From Hydrogenobacter hydrogenophilus (GTDB lineage: Bacteria; Aquificota; Aquificia; Aquificales; Aquificaceae): a stretch of 49,932 nucleotides of DNA. The DNA lies in the NCBI RefSeq assembly GCF_900215655.1, contig NZ_OBEN01000011.1, positions 1 through 49,932 on the forward strand, read 5' to 3'. Every line of letters begins with the position of its first letter. The stretch's first letter is position 1. Shown in pieces: positions 48,672 to 49,932 of the stretch. The notes under the pieces are model-generated. The model made no database searches. It saw only the letters and a program-made list of their open reading frames with translations, and was not told the DNA's origin. The translations under genes and the position numbers were made by a program.

Positions 48672-48721
48672 GTATGATGGTGATCATTTACACACATTTT
48701 CCGTTGTTTAAAATTATAAGT

Positions 48722-49120
48722 ATGAATTCACTTACTAAAATAAACATACTGCTCAGTTTCTTTTATCTTCTCTTAGGAAGCTCACTGGGACTTATGCTGA
48801 GCACGGCGCGTACCAGAGAGCTTTTATATTCCCTTGGTGGGACTCCTTCCTTTGCTCACGCACACATTCAACTTGTAGGTTTTGTCGGTCAGATGATTAT
48901 AGGCGTTACTTATCACATAGTTCCTATGCTGAGCAGGGGAAAAATAAACAGCTTTAAAATAGGTTATATACACATCACTCTTCTGAATATAGGACTGTTG
49001 ACGCAGGTTTATGGATGGCTCACGGGTGATGGTCTCTTTGTGAGTCTTGGTTCTCTCCTGCTCTTCTTTTCCATATTAATGTACCTTTTTAACATACTCA
49101 AAAGCATGAATTGGGGGTGA
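48722..49120 (+). CDS. Four-helix membrane protein resembling heme-copper oxidase / NorB core
   Basis: 132 aa from MNSLTKINILLS; an upstream in-frame ATG at 48674 would add 16 residues. Four transmembrane segments are seen. Helix 2 (FAHAHIQLVGFVGQMIIGVTYHIVPML) closely recalls helices of cbb3 oxidase/NorB subunit I, with His in AHAHIQ and YHIVP that could bind heme. It is far too short to be a full oxidase. With the cupin and ScdA_N genes it suggests NO or redox sensing or defence. Confidence 0.75.
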   Translation: MNSLTKINILLSFFYLLLGSSLGLMLSTARTRELLYSLGGTPSFAHAHIQLVGFVGQMIIGVTYHIVPMLSRGKINSFKIGYIHITLLNIGLLTQVYGWLTGDGLFVSLGSLLLFFSILMYLFNILKSMNWG

Positions 49121-49123
49121 GCT

Positions 49124-49426
49124 ATGAAGAACAACCTTCTGAAGGTTCAACCAAACGGTTCAAGGCTTAGGCATGTTCTTGCGTACGATTCAAAGGAAGC
49201 AAGGGTAGTGGTTTTTTCTATGCCTTCCGGAAGTGAAGTTCCCCCTCACAACAGCCCTTCAAGGGTTTTGCTATACTGTGCAAAAGGTGAGGGAAAGTTT
49301 CTTAAAGGAAAAGATTGGATAGATGTGGAAGAAGGCGACCTTGTAGCATGCGAACCCTTAGAACCTCACGGTATGAAAGCCCAAAAGGATATGATCGTGA
49401 TAGCTATCATAGCACCCGCACCATGA
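49124..49426 (+). CDS. Small cupin-domain protein
   Basis: 100 aa single-domain cupin: MPSGSEVPPHNSPSRVLLYCAKGEGKFL (motif 1) and VEEGDLVACEPLEPHGMKA (motif 2). Candidate metal ligands are H42, the Glu/Cys region and H82. The ATG follows GGTGAG 3 nt after the membrane-protein stop. A decayed copy lies at 49679-49835. Confidence 0.88.
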   Translation: MKNNLLKVQPNGSRLRHVLAYDSKEARVVVFSMPSGSEVPPHNSPSRVLLYCAKGEGKFLKGKDWIDVEEGDLVACEPLEPHGMKAQKDMIVIAIIAPAP

Positions 49427-49441
49427 AAAGGAGGACATAGC

Positions 49442-49639
49442 ATGATAAACAAAAATATGACAGTTAACGAGCTTTTGAGAAATTACCCTTGCCTGCAAAC
49501 TCTTCTTGAAGAGTATCACATAGACTACTGTTGTGGAGGACACAGAACCCTTCAAGAAGTGGCGGAACAAGACTGCTTTGATCTTGAGCAGTTTTTAAAG
49601 GATGTAGAACAAAAGCTGAAAGAGGAAAACTGCACATAG
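49442..49639 (+). CDS. ScdA/RIC N-terminal (DUF542) domain protein
   Basis: 65 aa, the N-terminal ScdA_N domain alone: MTVNELLRNYPCLQTLLEEYHIDYCCGGHRTLQEV. In full-length RIC/YtfE/ScdA proteins this precedes a di-iron hemerythrin domain that repairs Fe-S clusters damaged by nitric oxide; that domain is absent here. The CCGG cysteines are intact. A strong SD (AAAGGAGG) precedes the ATG. Confidence 0.92.
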   Translation: MINKNMTVNELLRNYPCLQTLLEEYHIDYCCGGHRTLQEVAEQDCFDLEQFLKDVEQKLKEENCT

Positions 49640-49678: not shown

Positions 49679-49835
49679 CTTCTGGTATGTCAAAAAAGGA
49701 AAAGAGTGGATAAAGGTACAAGAAGGCGATCTTGTAGTTTGCGAACCATTAGAACCTCATGGGATGAAAGCTCAAAAGTATATGATAGTGGTAGCGATAA
49801 TTTTACTTAATTCTAATCAAAAAAGCTCCTTTTAA
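49679..49835 (+). pseudogene. Decayed C-terminal duplicate of the cupin gene
   Basis: From about 49696 the frame reads KGKEWIKVQEGDLVVCEP then LEPHGMKAQKYMIVVAII, nearly identical to the C-terminal 40 residues of the cupin at 49124. The N-terminal half is missing, a TAA stands upstream in the same frame, and the end diverges (LLNSNQKSSF). Its TAA stop ends exactly where the terminal repeat begins. Confidence 0.85.
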
Positions 49836-49932
49836 CTGAGGCTGTTTGAAAAATCCCAGAGCATTGACAAAACTTGATTTCTAAAAACAGCCCTCAAAAG
49901 CTCAAAAAATAAGTAAATCCCCCAAAGCACCA
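49836..49932. repeat. Right arm of 97-bp terminal inverted repeat
   Basis: Exact reverse complement of 1-97. It starts CTGAGGCTGTTTGAAAAATC directly after the stop codon of the decayed cupin copy. No protein-coding content is recognised. Confidence 0.9.

Follow-up and report, generated by a model that had tools for sequence, protein, structure and literature searches.

The window, by which we mean the whole 49,932-nt stretch of Hydrogenobacter hydrogenophilus DNA that was analysed, stops at the contig terminus (position 49932), and close to this end there are three consecutive plus-strand open reading frames: a 132-aa protein with four transmembrane helices (4TM), a 100-aa cupin and a 65-aa ScdA_N protein. 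The features of the locus are as follows.

48674 to 48687, no strand assigned: ATGAT-N4-ATCAT palindrome (context TATGATGGTGATCATTTA), predicted site of a Crp/Fnr-type activator
48709 to 48714, plus strand: putative -10-like box TAAAAT, read from the sequence
48722 to 49120, plus strand: 4TM gene, whose 132-aa four-helix membrane product corresponds to one arc of heme-copper oxidase subunit I
49124 to 49426, plus strand: cupin gene, 100 aa, homologue of Thermus NsrT
49442 to 49639, plus strand: ScdA_N (DUF542) gene, 65 aa, stand-alone domain with a CCGG dithiol, homologue of Thermus NsrS

This trio consists of real genes that form one unit, as the preliminary description had it. Pairwise comparison of four genomes gives pN/pS values of 0.19-0.39 for all three, and they are therefore genes under purifying selection and not chance ORFs; their families are COX1 (sub-threshold), Cupin_2 and ScdA_N. 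The good ribosome sites that had been claimed for all of them exist for the cupin gene (GGGGGTG, 49113-49119) and the ScdA_N gene (AAAAGGAGG, 49426-49434), but the site of the 4TM gene is poor. An alternative, earlier ATG of the 4TM gene at 48674 would give a protein of 148 aa; the homologues start at the position of 48722.

Downstream of the trio, at 49693-49820 (plus strand), a second cupin copy has decayed to a fragment; it is nearer to the lone cupin of genome G002 (see below) than to the intact one that starts at 49124. The last part of the window (49838-49932), read as its reverse complement, recurs at the start of contig C18 (L098, 1-95), which carries norC-norB of this genome; one and the same repeat (GAGGCTGTTT...AAACAGCCCTC) lies at the border of both contigs. 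A phage origin of the trio was rejected, since comparison with the PHROGs families gave nothing relevant.

The 4TM protein is one four-helix arc of the heme-copper oxidase subunit I. Its match to COX1 (PF00115, profile positions 312-397, E = 5.5e-7) scores 29.2 bits, below the curated cut-off of 34.8, and a profile of 32 of its homologues matches CcoN (E = 4e-12), less strongly the two remaining arcs of that chain, and also NorB. AlphaFold2 models the protein as four long helices and one short one (pLDDT 94.5), and in Foldseek every one of the top 38 PDB matches of this model is a heme-copper oxidase or an NO reductase, with query TM-scores of 0.83-0.85 for the best (and E-values that are weak owing to the short query). 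This bears out the initial view of a 132-aa protein like an isolated oxidase fragment. Residues H46 and H48, an HxH pair of the helix X type, align with CcoN H345 and H347, the ligands of heme b3 and heme b. H46, H48 and H65 are invariant in 32/32 homologues, so that the two His on which the preliminary description depended are indeed kept; for H65 this is partly built in, as the patterns of the genome scan described below contain HAH or YH, whereas for H46/H48 it is independent in most of the non-Thermus matches, which have HVH, HMH or another HxH that does not fit HAH and so were found via the YH pattern. The protein probably binds heme, and the positive charge of the loop that joins helices 2 and 3 points to an N-in topology with the HxH at the outer face.

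Since the heme ligand pair of CcoN and NorB is kept, the 4TM protein might be a minimal membrane heme protein that itself binds or reduces NO, a detoxifier like NnrS or NOR to which ScdA_N and the cupin supply electrons. Such a protein could fill the niche of NnrS, no above-cut-off member of which was found in the 20 carrier or related genomes tested, and tandem relatives exist that approach a whole oxidase: L052 (3-1250) encodes three tandem 4TM units with HxH kept in all three, and its model (pLDDT 68) matches the whole oxidase subunit I with a TM-score of 0.72, while L063 (7887-8756) has two such units. However, the single unit has no CuB/FeB ligand set, and the Aquificota carriers already possess a NOR, so that we regard this possibility as distinctly unlikely. 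The NnrS profile PF05940 has no match to the trio proteins at E values up to 1, and on this ground, together with the lack of above-cut-off NnrS in the 20 genomes, membership of NnrS was rejected; a full NOR was likewise rejected at the curated cut-offs.

The cupin is above the Cupin_2 (PF07883) cut-off, with 35.4 bits against 27.2, and its residues C52, E77, E80 and H82 are invariant in Aquificota and Thermus. It has no canonical 3-His/1-Glu metal site, with only H42 and H82 in Aquificota. A metal site is doubtful to judge from this sequence, because the His-x-His motif is absent and the first His (H42) is lost in Thermus. The ScdA_N protein is also a secure family member (PF04405, 46.4 bits against 32.5), and its C30 and C31 are invariant in seven sequences from two phyla. 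With only 65 aa and 37.6 bits against the TIGR03652 cut-off of 204.7 for full-length RIC, it was rejected as a full RIC. Thus, of the NorB, NnrS and RIC profile matches that had originally been suggested, the CcoN/NorB match of the 4TM profile and the ScdA_N domain were obtained, but NnrS gave nothing and RIC stayed below its cut-off.

Of the 121 Aquificota-type relatives, G000, G003, G004 and G009 have a short 4TM homologue with a strong match (E < 1e-49), each time in the identical order 4TM-cupin-ScdA_N. The genes that follow the trio differ; proS precedes it in G000 and G003, and another gene does so in G004 and G009. PF04405 is present in exactly 4/121 relatives, the same four genomes, and no full-length RIC domain was found in these Aquificota. 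In G002 only the cupin is left at the proS site, with an apparent remnant in its leader, the beginning of a lost 4TM gene. A Thermus-like norB is present in 4/4 trio genomes and a full NirS in 3/4. The norB of G003 is in two pieces on contigs C52 and C8 with overlapping query ranges, which is either a split gene or an assembly effect. In the Hydrogenobacter-type genomes the trio is away from the nir/nor genes, with norB and nirS elsewhere, none of the Aquificota trios has an adjacent nsrR, and most Aquificota having norB do not have the trio. Trio-less Aquificota include 14 genomes in which no more than 16 kb separate 12-helix relatives of the 4TM protein from nirS or a NOR homologue, and 14 in which a more distant cupin homologue is ~1.5 kb from a qNOR-size gene. 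At G065:C29:45773-46528, from a different family within the order, a Rrf2 regulator directly precedes a cupin homologue and a qNOR-size gene, an arrangement that resembles that of Thermus.

The Aquificota trios share a promoter site. In G000, G003, G004 and G009 the palindrome ATGATrGTrATCATTTA is 41-49 nt upstream of the 4TM start, and it also precedes the lone cupin of G002. Its centre is ~28-31 nt before the -10-like box across genomes, the distance expected of class II Crp/Fnr promoters; in the window TAAAAT starts 28.5 nt past the centre (class II spacing) and is ~7-8 nt before the 4TM ATG, and the other trio genomes have comparable boxes. The generic ATGAT-N4-ATCAT is frequent genome-wide (57/46 matches versus 24/17 for the reversed control), and therefore only the form ATGATnGTnATCATTTA was counted as evidence. 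The three exact sites of this form in G000 belong to the trio, to a DUF2249 fusion gene and, in reverse orientation, to an operon for a cytochrome c'-like protein (CMACH motif, sub-threshold Pfam match), MIP18, DUF2249/DUF1858 and a TM protein; in G009 a variant site precedes a hemerythrin gene. At L132 (5316-5989) and L135 (569-3316) the palindrome is upstream of an operon for a cytochrome c'-like protein, MIP18, DUF2249-DUF1858 and a 374-aa TM protein. A Crp-family gene is intact in G000, G002, G003 and G004 and broken in G001 (L154), the one member of the genus without trio and cupin; this tie between the Crp-family gene and the trio is suggestive only. NsrR was rejected as the regulator of the Aquificota trios, since the Rrf2 gene lies apart from the trio and the palindrome is not the NsrR motif published for Thermus.

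Outside the Aquificota, the nic cluster of Thermus thermophilus encodes NsrR, NsrS and NsrT, the latter being called the last protein of the cluster, with a weakly active nsrST promoter (PMC5748679). By tblastn, Thermus plasmids carry the order Rrf2-DUF542-cupin-hypothetical-YwiC, and in T. thermophilus JL-18 nsrR-DUF542-cupin-4TM-YwiC and norCBH are divergently oriented, nirS and nirJ lying farther on. The Thermus 4TM gene directly follows nsrT with a 4-bp overlap, and its product aligns with that of Hydrogenobacter. When GTDB genomes were scanned with no query other than the 4TM alignment, 34 loci were obtained, in Deinococcota, Gemmatimonadota, Deltaproteobacteria, Bacillota, Nitrospirota, Bacteroidetes and others. 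Of these loci 26 have an ScdA_N/DUF1858-type match, and in 26/26 the match is no more than 1 kb from the 4TM gene (the 1-kb zones are ~19% of the scanned bases, for a naive p of ~1e-19 that ignores relatedness); cupins are also found at L053, L056, L064, L072, L073, L079 and all Thermus loci. Gene order varies among phyla and the set stays. The co-occurrence elsewhere that the preliminary description called for is therefore seen in G003, G004, G009, Thermus and other phyla. That unrelated small genes stand side by side by chance, for which their small size and nothing else speaks, is already refuted by this stable synteny and 26/26 adjacency, as well as by the purifying selection, and has a negligible probability. 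The trio had been thought not to be a described system: two of its proteins are in fact named already, as NsrS and NsrT, in a paper (PMC5748679) that leaves out the 4TM gene. In the literature searched we found neither this partner or any other four-helix oxidase unit, nor the cross-phylum set, nor the tandem forms, all of which may be described elsewhere.

The neighbours differ between phyla. The Bacillota locus L050 reads nirJ-12TM-4TM-ScdA_N-DUF2249-norC-norB; in Gemmatimonadota, L079 reads NirK-FGE-SCO-ScdA_N-cupin-4TM and L082 has Rrf2-NirK-FGE upstream of 4TM, the NirK (copper nitrite reductase) being above the TIGR02376 cut-off. The deltaproteobacterial loci contain Nfu, ferredoxin, 4TM, DUF1858 and sometimes cupin and ScdA_N, with Mrp in several and oxidase genes in two; the company here is Fe-S assembly genes, not NO genes. 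Weak deltaproteobacterial 'ScdA_N' matches adjoining 4TM are in fact DUF1858 redox-disulfide domains; a true ScdA_N is close by at L054, L056, L057 and L058. Loci L009, L050 and L081, as well as the Aquificota 12-helix loci, contain ~420-aa oxidase-like proteins of 12 helices without a good Pfam match, which adjoin DUF2249 and Crp genes near nirS/NOR and are possibly analogues of NnrS.

Only 7/26 non-Aquificota carrier genomes, many of them MAGs of unknown completeness, have a NorB match, and a general redox role is possible because so many carriers are without a detectable NO reductase. The trio would then be a module for Fe-S/redox maintenance of the respiratory chain that is not NO-specific, a role in keeping with the company of Nfu, ferredoxin, Mrp and occasional oxidase genes in Deltaproteobacteria. 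The repeated linkage to nirS, norCB, NirK and Rrf2/NsrR-like regulators, and the NO-type gene set behind one promoter site, argue against this and leave it unlikely. For Thermus it has been proposed that NsrST resets the NsrR Fe-S cluster or serves NOR assembly (PMC5748679), and the adjoining norCBH and nsrR would suit a factor for maturation of NOR or heme-copper enzymes, or for sensor repair. Nevertheless, the Aquificota trios are far from norB with no NsrR beside them, and trio-type loci exist in genomes without a NorB match; we hold this explanation to be very unlikely. The NO-handling reading of the preliminary description is backed by the linkage to nirS/norCBH/nsrR in Thermus, NirK in Gemmatimonadota and norCB in Bacillota, and with this support from context the trio is very probably linked to NO or denitrification.

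Our preferred reading assigns the trio to denitrification and nitrosative stress, as an accessory cassette with an Fe-S repair mechanism like that of RIC, and we would give it a probability of about 0.52; the RIC-like repair role taken by itself falls somewhat short of an even chance, and an assembly of the three proteins is an even bet. Counting against the reading are the distance of the Hydrogenobacter-type trios from nir and nor, the low share of NorB matches in the other carriers, the absence of the trio from most Aquificota having norB, the doubtful metal site of the cupin and the weak activity of the Thermus nsrST promoter. The trio would correspond, in Aquificota, to Thermus nsrS-nsrT with a membrane protein as third partner, and would be turned on from the palindrome at 48674-48687 by a Crp/Fnr-type activator. 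In the membrane the 4TM protein, probably an oligomer that rebuilds an oxidase-like bundle, would bind heme b via H46/H48 near the periplasmic face, and either accept electrons from the quinol pool or capture NO. Within YtfE the ScdA_N dithiol feeds electrons to the di-iron site (PMC9052748), and because of this delivery to iron we suggest that the Cys-Cys pair of the trio ScdA_N may relay electrons on the cytoplasmic side, as the domain does inside RIC/YtfE. Their recipient would be a non-heme metal site of the cupin, in place of the RIC di-iron domain, and the net outcome of such a membrane-tethered split RIC would be that NO-damaged iron and Fe-S centres are repaired or protected.

The Thermus NsrRST system gains a conserved third gene in a set that spans several phyla, and the orphan ScdA_N domain gains a membrane partner that can be tested. 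Moreover, the single-arc protein and its tandem 2x/3x relatives make the origin of heme-copper oxidases by triplication of a four-helix unit directly testable. A bolder view, to which we give rather low odds, is that a free-standing third of subunit I becomes a heme protein by self-association, that the 2x/3x relatives are living intermediates of the origin of the superfamily by triplication, and that the unit, together with a split RIC, was enlisted in the defence against NO.

Compared with known systems, the trio is closest to Thermus nsrS-nsrT, with 37% identity for ScdA_N and 42-44% for the cupin, genes that are adjacent and co-oriented in both. However, the Thermus pair is next to nsrR and norCBH, whereas the Aquificota trio is flanked by proS and other genes; the order is ScdA_N-cupin-4TM in Thermus and 4TM-cupin-ScdA_N, with a different promoter site, in Aquificota. 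RIC (YtfE/ScdA/DnrN) has the ScdA_N domain with its vicinal Cys in common with the trio and is tied to the NO response, as the trio very probably is, but RIC continues into a C-terminal hemerythrin di-iron domain that the 65-aa protein does not have. With heme-copper oxidase and NO reductase subunit I (CcoN, NorB) the 4TM protein shares the fold of one arc and the HxH pair; subunit I has 12 helices and the CuB/FeB His residues, and the 4TM protein has four helices without these ligands. Finally, NnrS, a protein of 12 helices, is known from the literature as an NO-response membrane protein of heme-copper character, traits that the 4TM protein, which lacks a PF05940 match, would very probably share.
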